Position numbers and translations under genes: made by a program | The notes under the pieces: model-generated | Told to the model about the DNA's origin: nothing | The model's input: the letters and a program-made list of their open reading frames with translations, nothing else | The model's database searches: none | Shown here: positions 6,413 to 25,070 of the stretch, piece after piece | Layout: every line of letters begins with the position of its first letter | Position numbering within the stretch: the first letter of the stretch is position 1 | DNA from: Verrucomicrobiaceae bacterium | Lineage (GTDB): Bacteria > Verrucomicrobiota > Verrucomicrobiia > Verrucomicrobiales > Verrucomicrobiaceae | Length of the DNA stretch: 64,000 nt | Assembly: GCA_947507875.1 (NCBI GenBank) | Contig: CANNQP010000007.1 | Location: forward strand, 62,001-126,000 | Direction: 5' to 3'

Positions 6413-6416
6413 CGCA

Positions 6417-9596: not shown

Positions 9597-9893
9597 ACAG
9601 GCGGTATCAAACCGCAGCACAGCCTGCCTTGTGAACATCTTTTTAAAAAAACCTGCCTGAAAGTTAAAATTCCATTTGCCTATTTTTTATCCTGACCCAC
9701 TGTCGCGCCCCCCAGCCCCGGACTTTCCCCAAAGTCTTGCTGAAATGAACCTCTCGAGGTTCCTTTTGCTATCGGAGCAGTGAACCGGAAAAACACTGTG
9801 CGACTCTGAACTAGACAGAGCAGGCACATTGTCTCTCCCGTTCCCGCCCGACGAGGCCTCAAATAAGGATCGGATTTTCTTCCACAAGACAAC
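9597..9893. other. divergent intergenic region, symporter gene / rpsL
   Basis: No coding frame is supported in this stretch. It must hold the promoters for the symporter (leftward) and the ribosomal cluster (rightward), but I find no clean -35/-10 pair. A short inverted repeat GAACCTC/GAGGTTC at 9747-9762 with a 2-base centre is followed by CTTTT and could act as a weak terminator or operator. There is no Shine-Dalgarno sequence before the rpsL ATG. Confidence 0.4.
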
Positions 9894-10301
9894 ATGCCAA
9901 CCATCAATCAGCTCGTCAGACACGGCCGCAAAGACAAGGCGGAGAAGTCGAAGTCGCCTGCGCTTGCCAAGTGCCCGCAGCGCCGCGGAGTCTGTCTACA
10001 GGTCATGACCCGCACCCCGAAAAAGCCTAACTCAGCGCTTCGTAAGGTTGCCAAAGTGCGTCTGACTAACGGCTACGAAGTGATTGCCTACATTGGCGGT
10101 GAAGGCCACAACCTCCAGGAGCATAGCATTGTTCTTGTGCGTGGCGGTCGTGTGAAAGACTTGCCCGGTGTTCGCTATCACATCGTCCGTGGTACGCTTG
10201 ACTGTCTTGGTGTGGAGAAGCGTCGTCGTGGTCGTTCCAAATATGGTGCGAAGCGTCCGAAGCCAGGTGCCGCAGCTGCCCCAACTAAAGGCAAGAAGTA
10301 A
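9894..10301 (+). CDS. rpsL: 30S ribosomal protein S12
   Basis: S12 lines the decoding centre of the 30S subunit and is where streptomycin-resistance mutations occur. Conserved blocks are [22 protein letters not shown], and [10 protein letters not shown], whose aspartate is the site of beta-methylthiolation. At 135 residues it carries a basic, Ala/Pro/Lys-rich tail (about ten residues longer than E. coli). First gene of the cluster; rpsG follows 42 bases later. No purine-rich ribosome binding site precedes the ATG. Confidence 0.98.
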
Positions 10302-10343
10302 TCTCCTTTTTAACCGCTCTTTTAAACTCAGCATTTCGTTCTT

Positions 10344-10817
10344 ATGGCCCGCAGGAAACGCGTTTACGACAAGAATGTCGTCAAAGACTCCCGCTACGAT
10401 AGTGAAATCGTCGCCCGCCTCATTAGCCGCGTGATGGTTAGCGGTAAGAAATCCGTAGCGGAGAGCATCGTCTATTCTGCCATCGATTTGCTAAACGAGA
10501 AAACCGAGACCGTGGATCCCTTGGAGCTTTTCCATCGTGCGATCGACAACGCCAAGCCAAAGGTTGAAGTCAAGGCTCGCCGCGTTGGCGGTGCGACTTA
10601 TCAAGTGCCACTCGAGGTTTCCTCTGCGCGTTCTGAATCTTTGGCCATGCGCTGGATTGTTGGATACGCCCGCGGTCGCAAAGGTCAGCCCATGCATCGC
10701 GCTCTTGCGAATGAGCTCAAAGAGGCGGCTCAAGGACAGGGATCGTCCGTTCGCAAGCGCGATGACGTCCATAAGCAAGCTCAGGCCAACCGTGCCTTCG
10801 CTCACTTCCGCTTCTAA
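10344..10817 (+). CDS. rpsG: 30S ribosomal protein S7
   Basis: S7 nucleates assembly of the 30S head and contacts the E-site tRNA. The 157-residue protein shows the family pattern: MARRKR start, the AKPKVEVKARRVGGATYQVP hairpin region, and ALRWI-like AMRWIVGYAR. The C-terminus HKQAQANRAFAHFRF is the usual S7 ending. Preceded by a pyrimidine-rich leader without a Shine-Dalgarno motif; fusA starts 53 bases after the stop. Confidence 0.98.
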   Translation: MARRKRVYDKNVVKDSRYDSEIVARLISRVMVSGKKSVAESIVYSAIDLLNEKTETVDPLELFHRAIDNAKPKVEVKARRVGGATYQVPLEVSSARSESLAMRWIVGYARGRKGQPMHRALANELKEAAQGQGSSVRKRDDVHKQAQANRAFAHFRF

Positions 10818-10870
10818 TCGCGGATTTCATTCCACCGTAACAAGCTGCCCAGCCCCCTTTCCTTCAGACC

Positions 10871-13021
10871 ATGGCTAACCCCAACTCTCCTAACCGCGAA
10901 TTCCCCTTGGAGCGCACCCGGAATATCGGGATTTGTGCGCACATCGACGCGGGTAAGACGACGCTGACCGAGCGAATCCTATTCTACACCGGCATGATCC
11001 ACAAGATCGGTGAGGTGCATGATGGTGCCGCGACGACAGACTGGATGGAGCAAGAAAAAGAGCGTGGGATCACGATCACTTCTGCTGCTGTGACGGCCAA
11101 GTGGAAGCAGCTCAAAGAAGAGGGCATCTACAAGACACGGGAACTTGAAGACATTCGTGTTAACATCATCGATACCCCAGGGCACGTGGACTTTACCGCC
11201 GAGGTGGAGCGTTCTTTGCGTGTTCTCGACGGTGCTATTTTCGTTTTATGCGGTGTTGCAGGTGTCCAGCCACAATCGGAGACCGTTTATCGCCAAGCAG
11301 AGAAGTATGGTGTTCCGCGTATCGCCTTTGTGAACAAAATGGACCGAACAGGTGCCAATTTTGAGCGTGTGGTGGCGGATGTTCGCGAGAAACTAGGTGC
11401 ACCCGCTTTCCCGATTCTCATTCCTATTGGTGCGGAAGATCAACTAACCGGTCAGATCGATGTGGTGAACCAAAAAGCCATCATCTACTCAGACAGCGAT
11501 AAGTGGGGATCTACTTACGAGGTTCGCGAGCTCGAAGGAGACGAAGTGGCCAAGGCAAAAGCCGCGTACACGGAACTCTTGGATGCTGTCTGTAGCGCAG
11601 ATGATGAGCTAGGCATGATGTTCCTCGAAGAGCAGCCCATCGGCCCGAAAGAGTTGAAAGCAGGACTCCGCCGCGCAGTCATTGCAAACAAGATCATCCC
11701 GATGGCAGGGGGATCGGCATTCAAAAACAAAGGCGTTCAGTATTTGATTGATGCCGTGATCGACTACCTGCCAGGACCTCTCGACATTGATCCTCAGAAA
11801 GGAACGGTCGTTGACGAGCCCGAAAACGTCATTGAAGCTATTCCTGACGACAATGGCAAATTCATTGCCTTGGGCTTCAAGCTCTGGTCTGACAAGTTTG
11901 GTCGCTTGGTATTCTTCCGTGTTTACTCTGGCAAAGTCTCCAAAGGTGACACCATTTACAATCCACGCACACGCAAATCAGAGCGCGTGGGTCGGTTGAT
12001 CCAGATTCAAGCAGCTGTCCATAAGGACATTGACACCTGTTACTCAGGTGACATCGCTGCTCTCGTGGGTGTCAAAGACGTCAGAACAGGTGATACCTTC
12101 TGTGATGAAAGTCTTGAGGTGCAGTTGGAGCCACCAACTTTCCCTGAGCCCGTTATCAGCATGGCAGTAGAGCCGAAAACAAAGGGTGACCAGGAGCGGA
12201 TGGCGAATGCCCTTCAGCGACTTTCGGAAGAAGATCCCACGTTCTTCGTCAAAACGGATGAAGAAACAGGCCAAACGATCATTGCAGGAATGGGTGAACT
12301 TCACCTGGAAATTCTTTGCGACCGCCTCAAGCGCGAGCACAAGGTCGAAACCAATACAGGTAAGCCACAAATCGCTTATCGTGAGACCCTAACTCAAGCG
12401 GCAGACGGCGAAGGTAAGTTGGTGAAGCAGTCTGGCGGACGTGGTCAATACGGCCACGTGGTGATCAAAGTTCGCCCCGGTGAAAAAGGTTCAGGTATTG
12501 TTGTCGAAAACAAAGTGGTTGGCGGCACGATTCCTAAGGAGTTCATCAATCCAGCTAAAGCTGGCTGTATCGAAGCAGCCCTCAATGGAATCATCGCTGG
12601 TTATCCTGTGATTGATATGCACATTGATCTCGTTGATGGTTCCAGTCATGAAGTGGACTCCAATGAAAATGCCTTCAAAATGGCGGGCATTTTCGCAGTC
12701 AAAGACGCTCTGAAGAGAGCAAAATGCATTCTCCTTGAGCCAATCATGGCCGTGGAATGTACAACCCCAGAAGATTATCAAGGGGATATCATGGGTGACT
12801 TGAATCGTCGCCGTGGTAAGATCCAAGGCATGGATAGCCGTGGTGCGACAGCCATTCTGCGCGCTGAAGTGCCTTTGGCAGAAATGTTTGGTTATTCTAC
12901 AGCCATCCGCACACTTTCCTCCGGTCGTGCTAGCTACTCGATGCAGCCTAGCCACTTCGAACAAGTTCCTCAGCAAATTGTTGATCAGATTGTTGAGCAG
13001 CGAGGCGGCAAGCAGGCTTGA
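10871..13021 (+). CDS. fusA: translation elongation factor G
   Basis: EF-G is the GTPase that drives tRNA-mRNA translocation and, with RRF, ribosome recycling. G1 is AHIDAGKTT, switch I ERGITITSAA, G3 DTPGH, and G4 NKMD; domains II-V follow, including GMGELHLEI and the domain IV sequence SGGRGQYGHV. At 716 residues it is slightly long; part of this is a charged insertion of roughly seven residues relative to E. coli between the switch I helix and the DTPGH strand (KQLKEEGIYKTRELED). In the usual str operon tuf follows, but here rpsJ begins 38 bases after the stop. Start ATG 10871 has no Shine-Dalgarno sequence. Confidence 0.98.
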   Translation: MANPNSPNREFPLERTRNIGICAHIDAGKTTLTERILFYTGMIHKIGEVHDGAATTDWMEQEKERGITITSAAVTAKWKQLKEEGIYKTRELEDIRVNIIDTPGHVDFTAEVERSLRVLDGAIFVLCGVAGVQPQSETVYRQAEKYGVPRIAFVNKMDRTGANFERVVADVREKLGAPAFPILIPIGAEDQLTGQIDVVNQKAIIYSDSDKWGSTYEVRELEGDEVAKAKAAYTELLDAVCSADDELGMMFLEEQPIGPKELKAGLRRAVIANKIIPMAGGSAFKNKGVQYLIDAVIDYLPGPLDIDPQKGTVVDEPENVIEAIPDDNGKFIALGFKLWSDKFGRLVFFRVYSGKVSKGDTIYNPRTRKSERVGRLIQIQAAVHKDIDTCYSGDIAALVGVKDVRTGDTFCDESLEVQLEPPTFPEPVISMAVEPKTKGDQERMANALQRLSEEDPTFFVKTDEETGQTIIAGMGELHLEILCDRLKREHKVETNTGKPQIAYRETLTQAADGEGKLVKQSGGRGQYGHVVIKVRPGEKGSGIVVENKVVGGTIPKEFINPAKAGCIEAALNGIIAGYPVIDMHIDLVDGSSHEVDSNENAFKMAGIFAVKDALKRAKCILLEPIMAVECTTPEDYQGDIMGDLNRRRGKIQGMDSRGATAILRAEVPLAEMFGYSTAIRTLSSGRASYSMQPSHFEQVPQQIVDQIVEQRGGKQA

Positions 13022-13059
13022 TTCATTAAAACTCTCATCATTCACGACGGACTCACGCC

Positions 13060-13368
13060 ATGAACAATCAGAAAATTCGCATTCGTCTCCGCGCCTACGA
13101 TTATCGCACGCTCGACAAGAGCACCGCTGACATCGTTGAGACAGCCAAGCGCACGGGCGCTAAGGTTGCAGGCCCTATCCCGCTTCCGACCCGTATCGAG
13201 AAGTTTACCGTGAACCGCTCTCCACACGTGGATAAAAAGTCCATGGATCAGTTTGAGATTCGGACCCACAAACGCCTCCTAGATATTGTTGATCCTACTT
13301 CAAGGACTGTGGATGAGCTCAAGAAGCTCAATCTTCCTTCCGGAGTCGACATCACGATCAAGATCTAA
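13060..13368 (+). CDS. rpsJ: 30S ribosomal protein S10
   Basis: S10 is a 30S head protein that in E. coli doubles as NusE in antitermination. The 102-residue protein has the standard [15 protein letters not shown] start, the [23 protein letters not shown] loop (shown here across residues 46-68), and the GVDITIKI ending. It heads the S10 block and follows fusA directly because tuf is missing. Only a weak GGA lies upstream of its ATG. Confidence 0.98.
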
Positions 13369-13394
13369 ACAGAAACCTCAAAGAGGAAAAAATT

Positions 13395-14048
13395 ATGGCA
13401 CTCGGCTTGATTGGAAAAAAACTTGGAATGACGAAGGTCTACACCGAAAAGGGTGAAGCCATCGCAGTGACTGTCGTGGATGTATCTGGTAACAAGGTCA
13501 TTCAGGTGAAGAACAAGTCCGGCAAGGACGGCTACAGCGCTGTTCAAGTTGGTTATGGCGAACAGAAAGAGTTTCGCGTAAACAAACCTTTGTTGGGACA
13601 CTTCAAGAAGCATGGTACTTCTCCCAAGCGCATCATCAAAGAGTTTCGATTCACCAGCGACGAACAACTCCCAGCCGCAGAAAGCGAACTCAAAGCAGAC
13701 TTGTTTAGCGCCGGACAATGGGTTGACGTGATTGGTACCACCAAAGGAAAAGGCTTCCAAGGTGTAGTGAAACGCTGGAATTTCAGCGGTCAGCCTGCAA
13801 CTCATGGTCACATGATGCATCGTCGTCCTGGTTCCATTGGATGTCGTTTGACGCCAGGTCTTGTCTGGAAAAACCAGAAGATGCCAGGTCACGATGGCGT
13901 GGAGCGTGTGACGACACAAAACCTAAAAGTCATTCAGGCACGCCCTGAAGACGGCGTTTTGCTCATCAGTGGTTCGATCCCAGGAAATAAGGGTAGCATT
14001 GTTGTGGTTCGCCCTTCCAAGAAGAAGCCCGCACCAGCGGCCAAGTAA
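13395..14048 (+). CDS. rplC: 50S ribosomal protein L3
   Basis: L3 helps form the peptidyl-transferase centre region of 23S rRNA. The 217-residue protein begins GLIGKKLGMTKVY and contains the central loop GQPATHGHMMHRRPGSIG, where a glutamine is methylated in E. coli. A Shine-Dalgarno-like AAGAGGA at 13381-13387 lies seven bases before the ATG, one of only a few in the cluster. rplD follows after 20 bases. The Lys/Pro/Ala-rich tail is slightly long. Confidence 0.98.
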   Translation: MALGLIGKKLGMTKVYTEKGEAIAVTVVDVSGNKVIQVKNKSGKDGYSAVQVGYGEQKEFRVNKPLLGHFKKHGTSPKRIIKEFRFTSDEQLPAAESELKADLFSAGQWVDVIGTTKGKGFQGVVKRWNFSGQPATHGHMMHRRPGSIGCRLTPGLVWKNQKMPGHDGVERVTTQNLKVIQARPEDGVLLISGSIPGNKGSIVVVRPSKKKPAPAAK

Positions 14049-14068
14049 TCTAAGAAAGTTCATCCATC

Positions 14069-14677
14069 ATGTCCGCTACTGTTCTTTCGATCGACGCCGC
14101 TAAGCAGGCGCAATTAAACCTTGTGGAAGGCCACAAAGGAAAACAAGCTCTACACGAAACCGTTGTCGCCTATCGCGCCAATCGTCGTCAGGGCAATGCA
14201 CACACCAAGAACCGCTCTGAAGTCGCAGGTTCTGGCAAGAAGCTCTGGAATCAAAAAGGAACGGGCAATGCTCGTATGGGTTCCAAGCGTTCGCCTATCT
14301 GGAGCGGCGGTGGTGTTGTCTTCGGTCCTCGCAATACCACAGTTTGGGCGAAGAAAACTACGAAAGCGACGCGCAAATTAGCATTCCGCACGGCTTTAAC
14401 CGCTCGCATTGCCGATGGCGCTGTGGCCACGATTGCCGGACTTTCTATCGCCGATGGTAAAACGAAGAGTTTTGTCGGTGCTGTTAAAGAGCTTTCGACT
14501 GCTAATAAGCTTCTTGTTATCGGAACTTTCGATGAGACAACGTTCCGCGCTGCTCGCAACGTGCAGAGCGTGCAATTGATCTCGGCTGAAGATGTTAACG
14601 CTGAACAGCTCTTGAATTACCCACAGGTGCTCGTGACCAACGAAGCCCTTTCTACACTCGCACGGAGGACTGCCTGA
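14069..14677 (+). CDS. rplD: 50S ribosomal protein L4
   Basis: L4 lines the polypeptide exit tunnel with a long loop and in E. coli represses the S10 operon. The loop is recognisable here as NRSEVAGSGKKLWNQKGTG (residues about 49-67) followed by RMGSKRSPIWSGGGVVFGP. Length is 202 residues, normal. Its stop overlaps the leader of rplW: the rplW Shine-Dalgarno GGAGG lies inside the last rplD codons, with one base between stop and start, implying coupled translation. Confidence 0.97.
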   Translation: MSATVLSIDAAKQAQLNLVEGHKGKQALHETVVAYRANRRQGNAHTKNRSEVAGSGKKLWNQKGTGNARMGSKRSPIWSGGGVVFGPRNTTVWAKKTTKATRKLAFRTALTARIADGAVATIAGLSIADGKTKSFVGAVKELSTANKLLVIGTFDETTFRAARNVQSVQLISAEDVNAEQLLNYPQVLVTNEALSTLARRTA

Positions 14678-14678
14678 T

Positions 14679-14966
14679 ATGACACTAGACCCTCAATCTG
14701 TTATCCAAACCATTCGTTTAAGCGAAAAAGCGACACGCCTGGGTGAAGTCAACAATGAGTATGTGTTCATTGTGAGTCGCTCCGCGAATAAACTCCAAAT
14801 CAAGTTCGCTATCGAGAAGCACTTTGGCAAGAAAGTCGCTGCTGTTAGGACTTCGACTTTTGATGGCAAAGCTCGTCGTGAGCGTCGCGCTGATGAAGGT
14901 CGTACGAATCATTACAAGAAAGCTATCGTGCGGTTGAAAGACGGAGAACGTCTTGACCTCGTCTAA
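14679..14966 (+). CDS. rplW: 50S ribosomal protein L23
   Basis: L23 sits at the tunnel exit and is the docking site for trigger factor and signal recognition particle. The 95-residue protein has the SEKATRLGEVNNEYVFIV segment and KLQIKFAIEKHFGKKV, both typical of the family. Start ATG 14679 is one base after the rplD stop; a GGAGG inside rplD is placed about ten bases upstream. Followed after 46 bases by rplB. Confidence 0.97.
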   Translation: MTLDPQSVIQTIRLSEKATRLGEVNNEYVFIVSRSANKLQIKFAIEKHFGKKVAAVRTSTFDGKARRERRADEGRTNHYKKAIVRLKDGERLDLV

Positions 14967-15012
14967 TCCATTAACCCCGGTTCTGAATTTTTAACCAGAA
15001 GGACTCACAGCC

Positions 15013-15852
15013 ATGGCGCTGAAAACTTTCAAGCCCAACACCCCATCGAACCGCTACAAGGAGTGGAACTCTTTCGAGGAGATTACCAAAGATAAACCAG
15101 AGCGCGCATTGACGATTGCTCTGAGGAAATCTGGCGGACGCAACAATACAGGTCGCATCACTTGCCGTCATATCGGCGGTGGAGCAGTGCGTCGTTATCG
15201 TCTTATCGATTTCAAGCGTGAAAGACGCGATGAGGCAGCAAAGGTCGTCGCCATTGAGTACGATCCTAATCGCTCTGCTCGAATCGCTTTGATCGAATAT
15301 AAAGACGGCCAGAAAGCCTACATCCTAGCCCCAGCGGCTCTTGTTGTGGGTGCTAGTGTGATGGCTGGTGAAAAAGCAGCTCCTGAAGTCGGAAACGCGC
15401 TTCCGCTACGCAAGATTCCTCTGGGAACAAGCATCCACAATGTGGAGCTTGTTCGTGGTCAAGGTGGTGTTGCTGCACGCGCAGCAGGACAGGCTGCTAT
15501 TCTATCTAACCGTGAGGGTGATTATGCTCTTGTGCGTATGCCTTCAGGTGAAGTGCGAAAAGTCCATGCTGAATGTTACGCTACTGTGGGCGCTGTTGGT
15601 AACAGCGAGCACATGAACGTTGTCTCTGGTAAAGCAGGCCGCACCCGGTGGAAGGGTACACGCCCAACCGTCCGTGGTATGTGTATGAACCCGATCGACC
15701 ACCCCAACGGTGGTGGTGAGGGACGCTCCAAATCTGGTGGTGGTCGTCAGCACCTTCTTAGCCCATGGGGCCACGCGAAAGGTGAGAAAACGCGCAACAA
15801 GAAGAAGGCAACCGGCAAGCTTATTGTTCAGACTCGCCACGCGAAGAAGTAA
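15013..15852 (+). CDS. rplB: 50S ribosomal protein L2
   Basis: L2 is one of the most conserved ribosomal proteins and is needed for subunit joining and peptidyl transfer. The 279-residue protein shows [25 protein letters not shown], and the C-terminal block [19 protein letters not shown], which contains the conserved histidine near the catalytic centre. AAGGA at 14999-15003 gives a Shine-Dalgarno nine bases before the ATG. The C-terminus ends in a Lys-rich tail as usual. Confidence 0.98.
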
Positions 15853-15872
15853 TCTCGATTCATTTTTGATCC

Positions 15873-16154
15873 ATGCCACGTTCCCTAAAAAAAGGTCCTT
15901 TTGTCCAGCAAGCCTTGCTCGACAAAGTTGACAAAATGAATGAAGCCAAAGGAGCTAAACGCCCAATCAAAACATGGGCACGCTCCTCCATGATCACCCC
16001 TGATTTGGTGGGTCACACTTTCCTCGTCCACAACGGCAAAGACTTTGTCAGCGTGTACGTTACGGAAAACATGGTAGGTCACCGTCTTGGTGAATTCGCT
16101 TTGACCCGTATCTTCAAGGGTCACGGCGCTCACACGGTGAAAGCAGCTAAATAA
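15873..16154 (+). CDS. rpsS: 30S ribosomal protein S19
   Basis: S19 is a 30S head protein near the A-site finger. [11 protein letters not shown] is the invariant N-terminus; the central [21 protein letters not shown] and [11 protein letters not shown] segments are standard. At 93 residues the length is normal. Twenty bases after its stop comes not rplV but an exported coiled-coil protein gene. Confidence 0.98.
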
Positions 16155-16174
16155 TTGAATCCAGATTCATTATC

Positions 16175-16954
16175 ATGAAGCTTTTGCGCTATATTCTTCA
16201 ATCCTTTGCATTGCTTTTGGTGGCAATGCATGGGGTAGAAGTGAATGCGCAGACTTCGTTTGAGCTACAAGAGCTGAATACTACGTTGCAAGTCGCAGCC
16301 CAAAAGATTCAGATGCTTGAGGCTCAGATTGCTTCTTCGAAAGAAAAGGGTGAAGCACTAGCCCAGAGTGCTGCAGTTTCGAGCCAAGAAGCCCAAGAGT
16401 TGAAAGATCGCTACGAGCGACTAAGAGGTCTCTTGGAAGGTCTTGGCATTGCTGCTCTAGAGAACAACCGTGAAGAAACTCAGGACCGTCTGCTTTCTGC
16501 GCTTGCTGATCTTCGTGTAAGTGAAACATCACGTCAGAAGCTAGCCGATAGTCTGATGGAACTAGCGGAGGTCTCCTTGGCGTTCGCCAAGACAGTGCAG
16601 AATCCCGATCCGCTGACTGGAGATCGATTGCAAAAGGCACTCGTGAAGGCAGAATCTACCCTGGCCACTGCCTCCAATAAAACCGTTCAAGATACGCAGT
16701 CACTTGGAGATCTTCAAAACGTTCGAATTGTTAGTTTGAAAAATGAGTTGGGCATTGCTGTCTTTGCTGCAGGTATCAAAGAAGGCGTTAAACCAGGAAT
16801 GCCATTTGATATTTACCGCGAGGATAAGCCTATCGCAAAAGCTCTTGTCACAGAAGTTAGGAATTCAGTCAGCGGTGCCGTGATACAAGAATTGGCTTCG
16901 CTTTCTGACCCTGTCCGTGTTGGCGACCGCGCCAAAGTTTCCATCAATCGTTGA
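16175..16954 (+). CDS. exported coiled-coil protein of unknown function inside the ribosomal operon
   Basis: A 259-residue protein I do not recognise. It starts with a clear signal peptide (MKLLRYILQSFALLLVAMHG, cleavage likely after VNA around residue 25). Residues about 29-140 form a charged heptad-like coiled coil rich in Gln, Glu, Leu and Ala. A compact C-terminal domain (about 181-259) has the pattern GIKEGVKPGMPFDIYR and ends VRVGDRAKV, resembling small beta-barrel domains found in envelope proteins. It lies 20 bases after rpsS and 13 bases before rplV on the same strand, with no terminator, so it must share the ribosomal transcript. Nothing suggests an RNA-binding ribosomal protein. 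Likely periplasmic or outer-membrane associated; role unknown. Confidence 0.85.
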   Translation: MKLLRYILQSFALLLVAMHGVEVNAQTSFELQELNTTLQVAAQKIQMLEAQIASSKEKGEALAQSAAVSSQEAQELKDRYERLRGLLEGLGIAALENNREETQDRLLSALADLRVSETSRQKLADSLMELAEVSLAFAKTVQNPDPLTGDRLQKALVKAESTLATASNKTVQDTQSLGDLQNVRIVSLKNELGIAVFAAGIKEGVKPGMPFDIYREDKPIAKALVTEVRNSVSGAVIQELASLSDPVRVGDRAKVSINR

Positions 16955-16967
16955 TCCCTGTTGTTCT

Positions 16968-17342
16968 ATGGAAGTTCGATCCACCTACAAATACGCCCGC
17001 ATCTCCTCCCAGAAGGCGCGCCAAGTCACTCGCGCGATTACTGGTATGCCTGTCTCCCAGGCACTCAGCGTGCTTGATTTCACTCCCAAGAAGGCTGCTT
17101 TCTTGGTCGGCAAAGTTCTGCGTAGCGCGATTGCGAATGCTACCAATAATCATGAACTTGATGCTGAGGAAATGGTTGTGGCAAGTGCAGTTGCTACGCC
17201 AGGACCTGCTCTCAAGCGCATCATGCCACGTGCTCGTGGATCTGCTTCTTCCATCAAAAAACGCATGACACACATCACCGTCGTGCTTGGCAATAAGCCA
17301 GAAGAAGCCGTGAAGCCCGCTTCCAAATCGTCGGCAGAATAA
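16968..17342 (+). CDS. rplV: 50S ribosomal protein L22
   Basis: L22 reaches into the exit tunnel with a beta-hairpin. The 124-residue protein starts [20 protein letters not shown] and contains the hairpin sequence [20 protein letters not shown], the usual macrolide-resistance region. I use ATG 16968; an in-frame upstream ATG at 16917 lies inside the coiled-coil gene and adds sequence without family resemblance. No Shine-Dalgarno motif. The C-terminus is extended by a short Ser/Lys/Glu tail. Confidence 0.97.
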
Positions 17343-17368
17343 ATTCACTACTCAATTCAAGCACCTTT

Positions 17369-18154
17369 ATGGGACAGAAAGTAAATCCGATCGGCTTTAG
17401 GCTCGCAGTTTCGAAAGACTGGCGCTCCAAGTGGTTTGCCACGGGCAAAGAGTTTTCCGATTCACTTCACAGTGATATTGCCATTCGCAACTACCTGAAA
17501 GAAAAGCTCAATGGCGCAGCTCTCTCCAAAATCGTTATTGAACGTGCTTGGAATCAGGTTCGGGTGACGCTACACACGGCACGTCCTGGGCTTGTCATCG
17601 GCCGTAAAGGTCAAGAGATCGAGGTAATGAGCCAAAAGATCTCTGAGATGTGCGGAGGCAAGCAGGTCAAAATCGATATCTTTGAAATCAAGCAGCCGGA
17701 AATTGATGCCCAACTCGTCGCTGAGGGTGTGGCCGTTCAGCTGGAACGCCGTATTTCTTTTCGTCGTGCCATGAAGAGATCTGTGCAAACTGCCATGGAT
17801 CTTGGGGCGGATGGCATCCGTATTCGTGTCGCAGGACGCTTGGGTGGCGCGGATATTGCGCGCGCCGAGTGGTATCGTCAGGGTAAAGTTCCTCTCCAAA
17901 CACTTCGTATCCCCATTGATTATGGCTTCTATGAAGCCAAGACCGTTTATGGAATCATCGGAGTCAAAGTTTGGCTGAATCGCGGCAATGCTGGCGAAAA
18001 TGGTGTCGCTCCTCCTCGTCGTGAGCGTCGGGAACGTCGTGACCGTGATGACCGTGGAGGTCCGCCACGCCGCGGCGAACGTGCTGTTCGTGCTCCTCGT
18101 CCTGAGGCAACCGCAGAAGTTGCTCCAGAAGCTGAGGTCGTCTCTGCTGCATAA
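17369..18154 (+). CDS. rpsC: 30S ribosomal protein S3 with extended C-terminal tail
   Basis: S3 forms part of the mRNA entry site and has helicase-like activity with S4/S5. Conserved parts are [12 protein letters not shown], the KH-domain GRKGQEIE, and the C-terminal [14 protein letters not shown] with [13 protein letters not shown]. At 261 residues it is about 28 longer than E. coli S3; the extra tail (from about residue 215) is first Arg/Asp/Gly-rich ([15 protein letters not shown]) then acidic and Ala-rich. Such tails are disordered and differ between phyla. rplP starts 60 bases later. Confidence 0.97.
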
Positions 18155-18214
18155 GATTGAATTCTCTCGCCGAGTTCCGAATAACTTTCTCTAACTTATT
18201 CCTTTTAGATCTTC

Positions 18215-18634
18215 ATGGCTCTTCTTCCCAGTCGCGTAAAATATCGTAAGACCCAGCGCGGTAGCCGCTCGGGTAACGCCACCAGTGCAAACAAACTGGA
18301 CTTCGGTGAGTTTGGTCTGCAAGTGCTTGAGCGTGGCTGGCTGAAAAACAACCAGATCGAGGCTTGCCGTGTTGCCATCACCCGGTTCCTGAAAAGAAAA
18401 GGTAAGGTTTTCATCCGAGTATTCCCACACAAGCCCGTCACTGCGCGTCCCCCTGAAACTCGAATGGGTAAAGGTAAGGGTTCACCGGAGTTTTGGGTTT
18501 CTGTTATCCTTCCAGGACACATGCTGTTTGAAATTTCCGGCGTTAACGAGGCGACCGCACGTGATGCATGCCGTTTGGCAGCGAATAAGCTTGGTTTCAG
18601 AACGCGTTTTGTCACCCGCGCTATCTCTCACTAA
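18215..18634 (+). CDS. rplP: 50S ribosomal protein L16
   Basis: L16 organises the A-site region of the 50S subunit. [15 protein letters not shown] at the start, [15 protein letters not shown]-like central sequence and the [13 protein letters not shown] loop, which carries the arginine hydroxylated in E. coli, are all present. Length 139 residues is normal. The 60-base gap from rpsC is pyrimidine-rich with no ribosome binding site; rpmC follows after 21 bases. Confidence 0.97.
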
Positions 18635-18655
18635 TTTTTATCAACGAATCTAACC

Positions 18656-18862
18656 ATGAAGATCAAAGAATTACGTGAGCTGTCAGTCGATGAGCTTGGC
18701 TCTCGCAAGCGTGAACTCCGTCAAGAGATGCTCAATTTGCGCGTGCAGCAGCAGATCGGTCAGTTGGAAAATCCTTCAAGATTGCGCACTCTTCGCCGCG
18801 AAGTGGCACAAATTGAAACACTGATCACCCAGCGCAGCAACTCTGCCGTTAAAGCTGCCTGA
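18656..18862 (+). CDS. rpmC: 50S ribosomal protein L29
   Basis: A 68-residue two-helix protein at the tunnel exit next to L23. MKIKELRELS, ELGSRKRELRQEMLNLRVQQ and the helix with RTLRREVAQIETLI match the family well. Its place between rplP and rpsQ is the universal order. No Shine-Dalgarno sequence. Confidence 0.96.
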   Translation: MKIKELRELSVDELGSRKRELRQEMLNLRVQQQIGQLENPSRLRTLRREVAQIETLITQRSNSAVKAA

Positions 18863-18895
18863 GGATGAATAACCCTTTGAATTGAACATAGAATC

Positions 18896-19174
18896 ATGAG
18901 CGAAACAGCAACAGCACCGGCTACGGCCAAGGCTCCAGTGCAGAAGACCCGCGTTGGCGTCGTCGTCTCTGCCAAAATGAATAAGACTATCGTCGTCGAG
19001 GTTGAGCGCCGTGTGCCCCACGCCCAATTTAAGAAGATCGTTCGCAAGACTTCCAAATTCTATGCCCACGATGAAAGTAGCCAAGCGAAAGAAGGGGATA
19101 AGGTTTTGATTTCCGAAACCAGGCCTCTTAGCAAGCTGAAGCGCTGGAATCTTGTGGAAGTGCTGAAGCACTAA
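18896..19174 (+). CDS. rpsQ: 30S ribosomal protein S17
   Basis: S17 is an OB-fold protein that binds 16S rRNA helix 11. The core reads [20 protein letters not shown], then [37 protein letters not shown]. An N-terminal extension of about 13 residues rich in Thr and Ala precedes the core, so the 92-residue length slightly exceeds E. coli (84). rplN follows after 53 bases. Confidence 0.97.
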
Positions 19175-19213
19175 TTCACACGCGATTCGAGATACTCGTT
19201 AACCCTAACATTC

Positions 19214-19220
19214 AGGAGGA
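19214..19220 (+). promoter_or_regulatory. strong Shine-Dalgarno sequence of rplN
   Basis: AGGAGGA lies eight bases before the rplN ATG at 19228. It stands out because most genes of this cluster lack any such motif. Confidence 0.85.
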
Positions 19221-19227
19221 ATAATCA

Positions 19228-19596
19228 ATGCTTCAGATGGAGTCATCAATCCCGGTAGCTGACAATACCGGTGCCCGCATGGCCGAAATGATCGGTGTGC
19301 TGGGCAAAAAAAACACACGCTTTGCATACGTAGGTGACATCATCACGGCGCACGTCCGTGAGTCCACACCCACAGCGAGCGTTAAAAAGGGTGAAGTTGT
19401 TCGTGCTGTTGTTGTGCGCACAGCCCACCCAATCCGTCGTAATGATGGTTCTATCCTTCGCTTCGACAAGAACGCGATCGTCATCATCGATAAGGACAAC
19501 AACCCCAAAGGCACTCGTATCTTCGGACCTGTTGCGCGTGAACTGCGTGACAAGAACTTCATGAAGATTGTGTCTCTCGCCCCAGAAGTTCTGTAA
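19228..19596 (+). CDS. rplN: 50S ribosomal protein L14
   Basis: L14 contacts the 30S subunit at bridge B5/B8 and is the RsfS silencing-factor target. [36 protein letters not shown], and [26 protein letters not shown] match the family throughout (122 residues). It has the only canonical AGGAGG ribosome binding site in the cluster. rplX starts three bases after its stop. Confidence 0.98.
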
Positions 19597-19599
19597 TTT

Positions 19600-19830
19600 A
19601 TGAGCCGTATCAAGACCCACGTCAAAAAAGGCGACACTGTTGTCGTCATCTCGGGAGCCCACAAAGGTGCTCAGGGTACCATCAAAGAGGTGCAGCCGAC
19701 CAAAAGTCGTGTCATCATCGAAGGAGTGCGCATGATCAAAAAAACAGTGCGTCCTAGCCAGCAAAATCAGGCAGGTGGTATCATTGAGAAAGAAGGCCCT
19801 GTTCACATCTCGAATGTGAAAAAAGTCTGA
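19600..19830 (+). CDS. rplX: 50S ribosomal protein L24 (short form)
   Basis: L24 initiates 50S assembly and sits by the tunnel exit. The KOW motif reads [20 protein letters not shown], followed by [19 protein letters not shown] and the closing [18 protein letters not shown]. At 76 residues it ends where many L24 proteins continue for another 25 or so residues with a zinc- or Arg-rich tail, so this is a compact version rather than a broken gene. It is the last gene of the cluster; rplE, which normally follows, is not in the window. Confidence 0.95.
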
Positions 19831-19865
19831 TCCACTAGACCATTCTTTTTGCTCTGCATGCTCAC

Positions 19866-19898
19866 GCCGCCTCGGCCTTGTCGAGGCGGCTTTTTTTT
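19866..19898 (+). terminator. rho-independent terminator of the ribosomal cluster
   Basis: GCCGCCTCG (19866-19874), a 7-base loop, then CGAGGCGGC (19882-19890) and eight T residues. A perfect 9-bp GC-rich stem with a long U-tract, 35 bases after the rplX stop. Confidence 0.95.
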
Positions 19899-19953
19899 GC
19901 TTGTCTTGTTTTTGAAGCGAACCTCCCGAGGTGATTGCGATCGCATTGAGTCT

Positions 19954-20574
19954 ATGAAACAGCCCGCTTTGCTTTGTGATATTGGAAACGTCTTGGTAAG
20001 CTTCGACTTTGGTCTTGCCGCAACGAGATGTGCACGTTTTTGTGATCAACCTTCACACGCATTGCTATCGTGTCTAGATGGCATCAAACAACCTTATGAA
20101 AGAGGTGATATTGATGACGCTGAATTTGTTGTGCGTGCGATTGAGGCTCTTGGATTCAGTGGCACGCAGGAAGAATTTGCGACAATTTGGTGTGAAATCT
20201 TTGAAGAGAATCATGCCATGAAAGCGTCACTCGCTGGATTTTCATCTTATTCGGAACGGCTGTTCCTTCTTTCAAACACCAGTGGTTTGCATAAAGATTA
20301 CCTGTTCGAGAGCTATGATGTTTTTCGGCTCTTCCGCGGCGGCATCTATTCTTATTCGGCCAAGTGCGCGAAACCTGAGCGACAGATTTTTGAAATAGCG
20401 ATCCAGCAATTCGATCTTCATCCTGAAGCGACGCTTTATGTGGATGATTTGGAGGCCAATCTAGTCACGGCGAAAGAGCTGGGTTTTCAAACCCACCTGT
20501 ATTGTCTAAACAATCATTCCGCCTTTGAAGTCGCCTTAGAGGAATGGAAAGTGTCGGTTGGTCTATCTTCGTGA
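19954..20574 (+). CDS. HAD-superfamily hydrolase, subfamily IA
   Basis: A 206-residue cytoplasmic phosphatase-like protein. Motif I is DIGNVLVSFD (the second acidic residue of the usual DxD is replaced by Asn in the DxGN form common to YihX-like enzymes), motif II LLSNTSG, motif III has Lys in AKCAKPERQIFE, and motif IV is YVDDLEANL. YihX-type enzymes hydrolyse alpha-glucose-1-phosphate or related phosphates; the substrate here is unknown. ATG 19954 (MKQPALLCDIGN) is chosen since an earlier in-frame start at 19849 would run through the ribosomal terminator. lpxI starts 10 bases after the stop. Confidence 0.88.
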   Translation: MKQPALLCDIGNVLVSFDFGLAATRCARFCDQPSHALLSCLDGIKQPYERGDIDDAEFVVRAIEALGFSGTQEEFATIWCEIFEENHAMKASLAGFSSYSERLFLLSNTSGLHKDYLFESYDVFRLFRGGIYSYSAKCAKPERQIFEIAIQQFDLHPEATLYVDDLEANLVTAKELGFQTHLYCLNNHSAFEVALEEWKVSVGLSS

Positions 20575-20584
20575 ATTTTGATCC

Positions 20585-21406
20585 ATGTCTATTGATCTGT
20601 CTTCCATCGCTCTCATTGCTGGTAATGGCATTTATCCTGAGACCTTTGTTGCTGCTGCTAGAAAGGCAGGAGTGGCGCGGTTAGTGGCTGCCGCCTTTCT
20701 TCAGGAAACCAAGCCCAGTTTGAGTTCCATGGTGGATTCGATAGCTTGGTTTAGAGTTGGGCAGTTGGGTAAGATGATTTCCTTTCTGAAGAAAGAGGGC
20801 GTCAGGCAAGCCGTCATGGTAGGGCAAATTGCTCCCAAGAATCTCTTTGATCTGATGCCAGACTTTCGGACGCTGCTCATGCTTGCCAAACTCAAGCGGC
20901 GTAATGCAGAGACACTGTTTGGGGCCATTGCAGATGAGCTCTTGAAGGATGGGATCACCTTATTGCCAGCGACTACATTTTTGGAACATCTGATGCCTTC
21001 TACGGGTCATGTAGCAGGGCCACTACTAAAAAAGAGACGATGGGAGGATGCTGAATACGGCTTCAGGATCGCGAAAGAAACGAGCCGATTGGACATTGGC
21101 CAGACCGTCATTGTAAAAAATGGAACTGTGCTGGCTGTCGAAGCCTTTGAGGGAACCAATGCGGCAATGAAACGTGGGGGTGAGATGGGAAAGGGCGGGG
21201 CTACCATGGTCAAGGTTTCCAAGCCTGATCAGGACATGCGTTTTGATGTGCCTGTGGTGGGGCCTGACACGATTCGAAATGCGGCGGAATCGAATGTCGA
21301 TGTAATTGCCGTGGAGGCTGGAAAAACACTGCTCTTAGGCCGTGAAGAACTGATGAATGAGTGTCAGCGACTCAAGATCAGCCTTGTGGCCGTGAAGTGC
21401 TCGTAG
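20585..21406 (+). CDS. lpxI: UDP-2,3-diacylglucosamine diphosphatase LpxI
   Basis: LpxI (formerly DUF1009) hydrolyses UDP-2,3-diacylglucosamine to lipid X and UMP in lipid A synthesis, replacing LpxH in many Gram-negative lineages. IALIAGNGIYPETF at the start, AVMVGQIAPKNLF, the RLDIGQTVIVKNGTVLAVEA block with EGTNAAMKRGG, and FDVPVVGPDTI are the family motifs; 273 residues is the usual length. It is ten bases after the HAD phosphatase gene and probably shares its transcript. Together with waaA at 61 kb it indicates a lipid A-Kdo outer membrane. Confidence 0.93.
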   Translation: MSIDLSSIALIAGNGIYPETFVAAARKAGVARLVAAAFLQETKPSLSSMVDSIAWFRVGQLGKMISFLKKEGVRQAVMVGQIAPKNLFDLMPDFRTLLMLAKLKRRNAETLFGAIADELLKDGITLLPATTFLEHLMPSTGHVAGPLLKKRRWEDAEYGFRIAKETSRLDIGQTVIVKNGTVLAVEAFEGTNAAMKRGGEMGKGGATMVKVSKPDQDMRFDVPVVGPDTIRNAAESNVDVIAVEAGKTLLLGREELMNECQRLKISLVAVKCS

Positions 21407-21532
21407 CCATTTTAGGCTGGGGATTATTTTTTCAAAAGTGCGGTTATGCCTTGATTTAAAAGGTGGAGTTATGAAAAAATGAGCGCTTCCCGTTGTGTGC
21501 GGGTCTCAATGTGTCCATCATAACCAACCCAT

Positions 21533-23185
21533 ATGTTACTTACTGCAATTAAAATGAAACTGGCAGCGCTGGTCGCTGTCGCCGGCATTGACACCGCCGA
21601 GATGAGCAACCCGAGTTCAGAACTCGTGTCGGCTCTCCAGAGTTTAGCCAATGATCAAGCTGCTGCCCAAAAAGCCGTGCAGGAAAAGACAGCAGGCCCT
21701 GACGTCAACAAAGCCTTCAACGACGCTCTGGTCAAAGTTCGCGAGCTTGTCTCGAAGAATGACAAGGACGCCCAATACGTGCTCGCCCACTGGGGCGTGT
21801 TGAGCAACAGCAACGTAGCTGAGATCATCGAGCTGTATCGCAAAGCAGCTTCTCAAGGCCAAGTGCTTGCCAAGGTCGAGCTCGCTCAGGTTCTACTTCA
21901 GGCTTACCCGCAAGATCAAGATCGTGCGAAAGAAGCCGTTCAGCTGATCCAAGACGCTGAAAGTGCCAACAACAAACTCGCTCGTCGTCTGCTCGCGAAT
22001 CTCAGCCTTTCAGGTGCTCCGAATGTCGGTATTCAGCAAGACATCAACAAAGCACGTACCTTGCTGGAAAAAGGTAGCAGTGAAAATGATGGTGAGGCTA
22101 CTCTCGGCCTCAGTCAGCTGTATGCAGCTGGAGTTCCTGGCCTACCCAAAGATGATCAAAAGTCCCTCGACTATCTGATCAAGGCAACTGAGCAAAAAAA
22201 CGCCGTCGCGATGAGCACCTATGCGACACGTCTCTTCAATGGGGATCCTGAAGGTGGCAGTTCGAAGCCCTTGGTGAAAAAGGACCCAGCCAAAGCCATG
22301 AAGATGTTTGAAGATGCTTCAGCGTCGGGTTTTGCAGCAGCAAGCCGTCTGCTGGGTGCCATTTATGAGCAAGGTCTGGGTGGCAATACGCAGGACCTGA
22401 AAAAGGCAGTCGAATACTACACCAAGGCAGCCAACGGCAACGACGCCGCAGCGCTCTTCCGCCTGGGCAACTACTTCGAAGGTGGCCTGCGCAATGGCAC
22501 CGACGAGAAAGCGGAAATTATCGTCCAGCCTAATGCCAAAAGCGCACTCGATCTCTACCGCATGGCTGCTCAGAATGGTTCAGCCGAAGCTTTCTACAAC
22601 GTCGGCGTTTATTATGAAAACGGTACCGTGGTGGACAAAGACCTGGAAAAAGCTTTCAGCTTCCTGCTGCGCGCTGCGAACTCTGGAATTACGCAAGCAC
22701 AGTTCCGTCTTGCTGGATTGTATCAGCAGGGTGGTGGCACTCAGCAGGACAGCGTCGCTGCAATGGCTTGGTTCCAGCGCGCTGCGAACGCCAACTTTGC
22801 TCCTGCTCAGATCGCTCTGGGTCAGATGTTTGAAACCGGCACAGGAGTGGGTGGCCCGGATTACACAGCTGCTGCTAGTCAGTATGAGTTGGCTGCCGAG
22901 CAGGGAGTGCCTCTGGCCATGCTCCGTTTGGCCAGCCTAAATGAGCGTGGTCTGACAAGCATCAAGGACGGTAAGCCAACACCAAATCTTTCCCGCGCGT
23001 ATGCCTATGCACTTCTTGCGGTGGATGCTTCCAGCAACGCTGATCTAGCCGTTCGTTATCGTGACGAGCTCAAGAAGAACATGAAGTCTGATGAGATTTC
23101 TGAAGGCGACAAAATTTATGCTTCCAAAAAGAAAACTCCTGAGGCTGCACCAGACAAAGCACCCAAAGGAGCGAGCAAAAAGTAG
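21533..23185 (+). CDS. Sel1-like repeat (tetratricopeptide-type) protein
   Basis: A 550-residue protein made of about ten Sel1-like repeats, each around 36 residues with the pattern A..LG.(I/L)YE.G...D..KA..(Y/W)...AA..G (for example LGAIYEQGLGGNTQDLKKAV, YYENGTVVDKDLEKAF). Such arrays are protein-interaction scaffolds. The N-terminus has a hydrophobic KLAALVAVAG stretch but no convincing signal peptide. The C-terminus is Lys/Pro/Ala-rich. Partner and role unknown. The 126 bases upstream contain no clear promoter; a strong terminator and tRNA-Ala follow. Confidence 0.88.
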   Translation: MLLTAIKMKLAALVAVAGIDTAEMSNPSSELVSALQSLANDQAAAQKAVQEKTAGPDVNKAFNDALVKVRELVSKNDKDAQYVLAHWGVLSNSNVAEIIELYRKAASQGQVLAKVELAQVLLQAYPQDQDRAKEAVQLIQDAESANNKLARRLLANLSLSGAPNVGIQQDINKARTLLEKGSSENDGEATLGLSQLYAAGVPGLPKDDQKSLDYLIKATEQKNAVAMSTYATRLFNGDPEGGSSKPLVKKDPAKAMKMFEDASASGFAAASRLLGAIYEQGLGGNTQDLKKAVEYYTKAANGNDAAALFRLGNYFEGGLRNGTDEKAEIIVQPNAKSALDLYRMAAQNGSAEAFYNVGVYYENGTVVDKDLEKAFSFLLRAANSGITQAQFRLAGLYQQGGGTQQDSVAAMAWFQRAANANFAPAQIALGQMFETGTGVGGPDYTAAASQYELAAEQGVPLAMLRLASLNERGLTSIKDGKPTPNLSRAYAYALLAVDASSNADLAVRYRDELKKNMKSDEISEGDKIYASKKKTPEAAPDKAPKGASKK

Positions 23186-23217
23186 GAGCTCACTTGTCTC
23201 AGTTTTTTCCATAAAAT

Positions 23218-23235
23218 AGCTTGTCAAAACAAGCT
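23218..23235. repeat. short hairpin after the Sel1 gene
   Basis: AGCTTGT-CAAA-ACAAGCT, a perfect 7-bp stem with a 4-base loop lying 13 bases before the main terminator stem. No U-tract of its own. It may assist termination or RNA processing. Confidence 0.5.
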
Positions 23236-23248
23236 TCGACTCTAATTT

Positions 23249-23282
23249 CCGGCTCCCCAAAAGTGGGGAGCCGGTTTTCTTT
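23249..23282 (+). terminator. rho-independent terminator after the Sel1 gene
   Basis: CCGGCTCCCC (23249-23258), AAAAGT loop, GGGGAGCCGG (23265-23274), then TTTTCTTT. A perfect 10-bp stem. It ends only two bases before the tRNA-Ala gene. Confidence 0.93.
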
Positions 23283-23284
23283 CC

Positions 23285-23360
23285 GGGGCATTAGCTCAGT
23301 TGGTAGAGCGTCTCAATGGCATTGAGAAGGTCAGCGGTTCGAATCCGCTATGCTCCACCA
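23285..23360 (+). tRNA. tRNA-Ala (anticodon GGC)
   Basis: A 76-base tRNA with acceptor GGGGCAT paired to ATGCTCC, the D-loop box TAGCTCAGTTGGTAGAGC, anticodon arm TCTCA-ATGGCAT-TGAGA giving GGC at positions 34-36, T-loop GGTTCGAATCC, discriminator A and an encoded CCA end. Anticodon GGC reads GCC/GCU alanine codons. It starts two bases after a strong terminator, which leaves no room for an ordinary promoter between them. Confidence 0.97.
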
Positions 23361-23486
23361 AACGGCATCAGCGCAAAGCTTAGCCTCCTCTGAGTCTCGA
23401 AGGTAGCTTCACCGGTGAATTGCATTCACTTTTAATTTGGCTGATAGGAGTCAGGGAAAGACCCATCCTCTAGCACCAAGATCCAA

Positions 23487-25070
23487 GTGAGCGCCCATCG
23501 ACAAACTGCACCCTCCCGTCAGCCTTCTTTCTTCAGTCGCCTTGTGGGACGTCTGAAAAAAATCATCGGTTTATCAGCAGCAAAAGTGGTGGATGACAGC
23601 CAAGCTGATCGAAGCCAATCCACCACGGAGACCGACCGACCTCCCTTTCGTGACAAGCAGCGTCGTCGAGACGCAGGAGCTCCTGTTGCCGAAGGAACTC
23701 GTGTGCGTGGAAGTCAGCGTGAGCGTTCTGGCCGTCGAGGTGATGAGCATGGGGCACCGCGCCGCGAACGTGGTGGCGACCCGCGCCGCGAACTAACAAC
23801 GGAAAAGCGAGCCACGATCCAAAACTTCGAACCGCTCCCCCCTCCTCCTGTGCCACCGACTCCAGAAGGGCCTTATCCAGAAGCCTTTGAGGCGCTGGGC
23901 CTTTCGGCAGCAGTTTTGGCTGCGATTCGTGAGACTGGTTATAGCACGCCTACGGAGATTCAGCAGCGAGCCATTCCTGTGGTCTTGGAAGGCCGAGATG
24001 TGATTGGGGCTTCACAAACTGGTACAGGTAAGACAGCAGCTTTTGCGCTACCATCGATCAGTCGCCTAGGACCTCCCGCAGGTTTTCGTTGCCTTGTGCT
24101 TGAGCCCACCCGTGAGTTGGCACTTCAGGTGGTGGAGCAGTTCGAAAAATACGGCAAACACTCCGGTTTACGCATTTTGGCTGTGTATGGCGGTGTAGGC
24201 TATGAAAAGCAGCGCAAAGCCCTCCAGCAAGGTGTGGATGTCGTGGTGGCGACACCTGGCCGTTTGTTAGACTTCATGCAGGATGGCACCGCCAACTTGA
24301 ATGGATTGGAAGTTTTAGTGCTCGATGAAGTGGATCGCATGCTCGACATGGGGTTTCTTCCCGACGTTAGGCGGATCGTCGAACGCACACCGAAGACACG
24401 GCAGACCTTGTTCTTTTCTGCCACCATGCCGCCGCAAATCAAAAGTTTAGCGGACTTCGCTCTCAAAGAGCCACTCAGTGTGGAGGTCGGTATTCGTTTT
24501 TCACCGGCCGAGACGGTGAGCCACTACATGTACCCAGTGGCTAGCGATCAGCGAGAGGAGTTGCTACTCGCGATCCTGAAACAGACGCACTTCAACAGCT
24601 TGATGGTCTTCACGAGGACCAAAGCGCAGGCGGATCAGCTGTATTCATCACTCAAACAAAGCGGCGAATACAAGGTGGCAGTGATGCACTCTGACATCAG
24701 TCAAAAAGAACGTGAACGCGCGCTCAAAGGTTTTCGTGACGGTGAGTTTGAGATGATCGTCGCGACGGATCTTGCGGCTCGTGGATTGGACATCAGCGGC
24801 GTGACACATGTGATCAACTACATGGTGCCTGAGAATTCAGAAGACTATGTGCACCGCATCGGTCGAACAGGACGTGCGCAAAAGGAAGGCGATGCCTACA
24901 CCCTCTTCTCCGCTGAAGAATTGCCTTATGTGGCCAGCATTGAGCGTCTGATTAATCAAAAGATTGAACGCAAGAAGCTTGAAGGCTTTGCCTACAAATA
25001 CACCACGGTGTTGGACGAAGAAGACAAGGCGCGTGCCATCTTGCATGGCCGCAAGAAGAAGCGCCGTTGA
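23487..25070 (+). CDS. DEAD-box RNA helicase (RhlE-like)
   Basis: An ATP-dependent RNA helicase of 527 residues. Residues about 1-125 are a disordered, Arg-rich extension (RSGRR, RRERGGDPRRE). The helicase core contains the Q motif (GYSTPTEIQQ), motif I ASQTGTGKT, Ia PTRELALQ, GG, TPGR, DEVDRMLD (a DEVD form of motif II), SAT, and motif VI HRIGRTGRA. It stops soon after with a short basic tail KKKRR. Likely roles are ribosome assembly or mRNA decay; which cannot be told. There is no ATG before the core, so GTG 23487 (VSAHRQ) is the most likely start; other non-ATG starts are possible. Confidence 0.9.
   Translation: MSAHRQTAPSRQPSFFSRLVGRLKKIIGLSAAKVVDDSQADRSQSTTETDRPPFRDKQRRRDAGAPVAEGTRVRGSQRERSGRRGDEHGAPRRERGGDPRRELTTEKRATIQNFEPLPPPPVPPTPEGPYPEAFEALGLSAAVLAAIRETGYSTPTEIQQRAIPVVLEGRDVIGASQTGTGKTAAFALPSISRLGPPAGFRCLVLEPTRELALQVVEQFEKYGKHSGLRILAVYGGVGYEKQRKALQQGVDVVVATPGRLLDFMQDGTANLNGLEVLVLDEVDRMLDMGFLPDVRRIVERTPKTRQTLFFSATMPPQIKSLADFALKEPLSVEVGIRFSPAETVSHYMYPVASDQREELLLAILKQTHFNSLMVFTRTKAQADQLYSSLKQSGEYKVAVMHSDISQKERERALKGFRDGEFEMIVATDLAARGLDISGVTHVINYMVPENSEDYVHRIGRTGRAQKEGDAYTLFSAEELPYVASIERLINQKIERKKLEGFAYKYTTVLDEEDKARAILHGRKKKRR

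Follow-up and report, generated by a model that had tools for sequence, protein, structure and literature searches.

FlgT and TsaP, the latter a secretin-associated LysM protein, are periplasmic parts of envelope machines, and few bacterial gene blocks are as strongly conserved as the S10 cluster. Here we describe a gene, designated X, that brings these two subjects together. Its product is predicted to be exported and to carry a C-terminal beta-barrel like those of FlgT and TsaP, and the gene lies within the S10 cluster of a bacterium of the Verrucomicrobiota, a phylum with members in the gut and in soil, whose cell biology is poorly understood. X has stood beside rplV since the early history of this phylum, which ties an envelope protein, exported as far as can be read from its sequence, to a ribosome operon phylum-wide. 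Our searches of the open literature returned no earlier description of the gene.

A putative exported-protein gene between rpsS and rplV

The window, by which we mean the whole stretch of 64,000 nucleotides that was analysed, carries on its plus strand the gene order rpsL-rpsG-fusA-rpsJ-rplC-rplD-rplW-rplB-rpsS-X-rplV-rpsC-rplP-rpmC-rpsQ-rplN-rplX. The X gene (16175-16954, plus strand), supported by the ORF call, by homologues and by dN/dS, begins with ATG and encodes 259 amino acids plus a stop. It is separated from the upstream neighbour rpsS (S19; 15873-16154, plus strand) by 20 bases (16155-16174) and from its conserved downstream partner rplV (L22; 16968-17342, plus strand) by 13 bases (16955-16967). 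Across homologues the rpsS-X gap has a median of 22 bases, and the X-rplV gap ranges from 4 to about 45 bases among close relatives. Consensus scans found no sigma-70-like promoter and no convincing terminator between rpsS and rplV, including the 20-base gap, only weak stem-loops within genes, and an Rfam search of 9500-23500 returned tRNA only. The ORF call and the scans agree with the initial annotation, which had given the gene these coordinates, 259 residues, the same strand as its neighbours, gaps of 20 and 13 bases and no terminator. We infer that X is likely to be co-transcribed with the ribosomal genes.

Other features of the cluster were also observed. At 9894-13368, rpsL-rpsG-fusA lead straight to rpsJ, with no tuf gene in between. 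After rplX the cluster ends, and a HAD hydrolase, LpxI and a Sel1-repeat protein follow (19831-23185) in place of rplE and the remaining spc genes; a strong terminator-like hairpin lies at 19866-19890.

The predicted protein falls into three parts. Residues 1-25 (16175-16249, plus strand) resemble a signal peptide, with a hydrophobic core closed by V-N-A at residues 23-25, which reads like a cleavage site. In a simple hydropathy test of the first 50-60 residues, 170 of 189 distinct homologues have such a hydrophobic N-terminal segment, and the 19 that fail come mostly from apparently truncated contigs or have doubtful or mis-chosen starts, which supports the export proposed in the initial annotation. 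Residues 26-172 (16250-16690, plus strand) form a helical, coiled-coil-like region, modelled by AlphaFold2 as helices at 25-89, 92-97, 99-140 and 146-172. The C-terminal part, residues 182-259 (16718-16951, plus strand), is a predicted FlgT/TsaP-like barrel according to AlphaFold2, structure alignment and a profile match, with six strands between residues 183 and 255 at a pLDDT of about 92 (mean pLDDT of the whole model 81, pTM 0.37). A coiled coil followed by a small C-terminal domain had been proposed from the sequence, and the structure prediction favours this layout, with long helices and a six-stranded barrel. Among 41 members of the family, Pfam and NCBIfam scans gave only weak coiled-coil matches and sub-threshold FlgT_C matches. 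The C-terminal tail varies between homologues, and the conserved part is the folded barrel. Paralogues that share the hydrophobic N-terminus, the helical part and the C-terminal domain of X occur outside the ribosomal clusters on two other contigs of the same genome (C9 and C16); their similarity to X is low, about 22% over the C-terminal half for the C16 copy. Two of the paralogues stand in tandem on C9 (L124, positions 4492-6518).

The codon usage of X is ordinary. In the window's genome its codon adaptation is 0.715, where the background averages 0.691 and 35% of 281 ORFs are as high; most ribosomal neighbours rank within the highest few percent, with rplP, rpsC and rplW lower. In a second, complete genome (G054), 67% of background ORFs are as high as X. 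Because codon adaptation is ordinary in both genomes, synthesis of X at ribosomal rates, as the initial annotation had supposed, is not supported, judging by codon usage, and the idea that the position serves high output is weakened. A separate observation concerns the Sel1-repeat gene (21533-23185), whose codon adaptation of 0.798 is as high as that of the ribosomal genes and unlike that of its neighbours.

Distribution and inheritance across the Verrucomicrobiota

The initial annotation had made its interpretation depend on conservation in relatives and had proposed a comparison of the rpsS-rplV interval across Verrucomicrobiota genomes. In that comparison X homologues occupy this position in genomes across the phylum, far beyond chance expectation and far more widely than among relatives alone. 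A protein search matched a homologue in 55 of 56 related genomes. A usable contig was available for 52 same-order genomes; in every one rplV lies directly downstream of X, and rpsS lies directly upstream wherever the contig reaches; the other four of the 56 comprise one contig that starts at rplV and three incomplete assemblies in which no rplV was found. A scan of named genomes, which reached close relatives only, returned 43 loci, including Prosthecobacter, Brevifollis gellanilyticus and Verrucomicrobium, and every match was titled Verrucomicrobia or members thereof. Within the class, a profile of the 41 members matches 137 of 189 genomes at E 1e-3, a number that includes some paralogues, and all strong matches with a fetched neighbourhood sit between rpsS and rplV. 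Six families carry in this slot a short form of about 110-130 amino acids, in which the signal-peptide-like N-terminus is followed by the C-terminal domain and the helical part is missing; the short and long forms match each other in a profile-profile comparison (E 2.4e-11). In one genome (G177) the X ORF is enlarged to 558 amino acids within an rpsS-rplV interval of 2082 bases.

Outside the class, the order rpsS-X-rplV recurs in eight families. In seven named families and others (f59, f64, f69, f75, f82, f85, f88 among them) rpsS lies far from rplV, and an X-type gene is found directly upstream of rplV. The two ribosomal genes, where on the same contig, are about 37 kb apart in one genome (G312) and 0.9 Mb apart in another (G326), and the X domain was not matched in the fetched flanks of detached rpsS copies in 14 genomes. 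The window's group and the long forms of this rpsS-detached group align over 223 columns (profile-profile E 8.4e-18), and the AlphaFold2 model of one distant member has helices followed by a barrel, in the same order as X. The loci at which rpsS is split off and X is kept with rplV (eight listed, from L181 to L218, and others) fall in one deep group. The X domain stands upstream of rplV in 242 of 290 fetched rplV loci, a count over overlapping sets with many loci from the same genomes. The stable partner of X is rplV rather than rpsS. The initial annotation had taken rpsS and rplV to be adjacent in essentially all bacteria; in much of this phylum they are not.

True absences of X form several clades, in which the rpsS-rplV gap is mostly shorter than about 120 bases. 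Clean losses that leave gaps of a few bases occur, and X is absent from whole families with free-living-size genomes. In genomes without X at the slot, a search for a relocated copy returned paralogues only or nothing at E 1e-3. X is dispensable for some lineages, since it has been lost several times, including from these whole families. Two 0.9-Mb symbiont-like genomes have 148-313 non-coding bases without X in the slot, perhaps a decayed copy, and another genome (G104) has a 552-base rpsS-rplV gap whose longest ORF has no domain match, perhaps a broken or diverged copy.

On a tree of 98 tips built from L2, S19, L22 and S3, X is found on either side of the deepest sampled split. Parsimony requires at least 13 changes in presence, counts in which gain and loss are not separable, together with 3 changes for rpsS detachment and 4 between the long and short forms. 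Distances between X sequences follow those between ribosomal proteins (Mantel Spearman 0.75 over 67 genomes, 0 of 999 permutations as high), and pairwise dN/dS is 0.03-0.08 among the more diverged close relatives; very close pairs give noisy estimates of 0.12-0.14. X is therefore an old, vertically inherited and selected gene, since X and ribosomal trees agree and dN/dS is low. The identical position and the agreement of X with ribosomal distances favour one ancestral insertion followed by several losses.

Explanations for the position in the S10 cluster

The reading that we prefer, to which we assign a probability of roughly 0.45, somewhat below even, is that X is a housekeeping protein of the periplasm, a scaffold or an assembly factor; the supply of its message would keep pace with growth, and its yield would be moderate. 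X would have joined the S10 cluster, immediately in front of rplV, ahead of the divergence of the phylum's main lineages and would have descended vertically since. Read from the ribosomal-protein transcript, its message would follow growth, with X translation only moderate. The signal peptide would carry X across the inner membrane, leaving it periplasmic or membrane-anchored; the helical part would probably form a coiled-coil oligomer, and the FlgT/TsaP-like barrel would bind an envelope partner, which would make X a scaffold or assembly factor of the envelope. As the initial annotation suggested, X may link the making of ribosomes to the growth of the envelope. In a phylum-wide two-way version, X, as an exported scaffold made from the ribosomal transcript, would also act back on rplV translation through its own synthesis or export, tuning export capacity and ribosome synthesis to each other; this version strikes us as unlikely.

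The main rival is that X is real and selected but that its S10 placement has no regulatory meaning, the gene having landed there once and its removal or relocation risking polar damage to rplV and the genes beyond. Long conservation of gene order is usual in ribosomal clusters, and both the ordinary codon adaptation of X and the wide variation of the gap lengths on its two sides agree with such a passive neighbour. However, excision is possible, as the clean losses that leave no more than a few bases indicate, the breaks in the cluster fell on the rpsS side while X stayed with rplV, and no relocated intact X was found in the genomes searched, the weaker matches elsewhere being paralogues. We regard this rival as a credible explanation, somewhat less probable than the growth-coupled scaffold. 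A recent insertion without function can practically be discarded: nothing was found in its favour, and it is refuted by the presence of X across the deepest split, by purifying selection and by vertical inheritance. The initial annotation had named absence from all close relatives, or lack of translation, as grounds for such a view; the same-order genomes (52 of 52) and the dN/dS of 0.03-0.08, which marks X as a real gene, speak clearly against it.

Three further explanations would give X a more specific role. The initial annotation had also suggested an abundant structural periplasmic protein, which in the manner of Lpp or OmpA would be made in large amounts from the ribosomal transcript and would tether or space the envelope. 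The operon position and the exported, helix-rich architecture would suit this role, but the codon adaptation in two genomes is unlike that of an abundant protein, 35% and 67% of background ORFs being as high, and the short members have no helical spacer, which makes the idea improbable. We are about as doubtful, or slightly more so, that X is a TsaP-like accessory of a secretin machine, in a type IV pilus or type II secretion. Among solved proteins TsaP is nearest to the barrel in sequence, but X gave no LysM match, and the presence of X does not track secretins, which occur in 16 of 18 genomes without X and in 22 of 22 holders; a single family (f12), in which both genomes have neither X nor secretins, is the sole exception in this 40-genome comparison. 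Least probable of the three is a SecM-like secretion monitor, in which export of the nascent X chain would govern rplV translation and tune ribosome synthesis to export capacity. The product of rplV lines the ribosome exit tunnel, and a gene for a putative exported protein, kept directly upstream of rplV across the phylum and separated from it by a short gap, would suit such a monitor. Yet the junction shows double compensatory changes in 0 of 23 pairs, with a total energy of -7.3 kcal/mol over 8 close sequences, the C-terminal tail is variable where the folded barrel is conserved, and paralogues built in the same way lie apart from ribosomal genes; this reading is very unlikely.

Across this phylum the S10 cluster has long included, by inheritance, a gene for a putatively exported protein. 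X offers a concrete and testable way into the question of how the growth of the envelope is matched to the making of ribosomes, and it represents a conserved, uncharacterised protein family open to genetics in tractable members such as Verrucomicrobium spinosum, a genetically tractable species of the phylum. The V. spinosum TraDIS essential-genome paper reports 644 essential genes and 100 essential proteins of unknown function (PMC12283558).

Comparison with known envelope proteins

Among proteins of the same superphylum, X resembles the PVC signature protein CT421.2 in being lineage-specific, conserved and of unassigned function (PMC3444138). CT421.2 is described as 53-80+ amino acids long (PMC3444138) and X spans about 110-300, and by length and description the two appear to be different proteins.

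MreC (PF04085) has a layout like that of X, with an N-terminal hydrophobic segment, a coiled coil and a beta domain, and the MreC structure 2j5u is a weak Foldseek match to X (E 3.2e-4). An identification of X as MreC was rejected: X has no PF04085 match, and the genome has its own MreC on another contig (C27, E 1.2e-35). The neighbours differ as well, mreB being expected beside mreC and rpsS and rplV being found beside X in the loci examined. A separate mreC is reported for V. spinosum in its essential-genome paper (PMC12283558).

By sequence profile, the closest PDB match of the barrel is TsaP (3jc8), found in two stretches at E 2.3e-6 when a profile of 55 barrels was run by hmmsearch against PDB sequences. 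TsaP is exported, as X appears to be from its N-terminus. It has a LysM domain, whereas X has the helical region instead; LysM gave no match in the window protein at E values up to 10 and is absent from the commonest domain families of the 41 members.

By structure, the modelled X barrel has the same fold as the C-terminal domain of FlgT (PF16538), with a VIA-align Z of 11.6 against 3w1e and of 12.1 against FlgT in the LPHT ring 8z5n (rmsd 1.8 over 74 residues); over the two comparisons the rmsd is 1.8-1.9 for 74 residues at 15% identity. A weak FlgT_C Pfam match is seen in 7 of 41 members, the best at E 0.053 and under the Pfam cut-off, and a PF16538 scan of the whole genome returned nothing above the cut-off, the window protein being unmatched. 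The N-terminal barrels of the ATP synthase alpha and beta subunits also match by fold, at Z about 10; these subunits were rejected as relatives, the small-barrel fold alone being in common. The predicted X barrel is a small common fold, and because that fold is common and occurs also in the ATP synthase N-terminal domains, its likeness to FlgT is little guide to function. Unlike FlgT, X has none of the other FlgT domains, bears a long predicted helical region and is encoded in a ribosomal operon.
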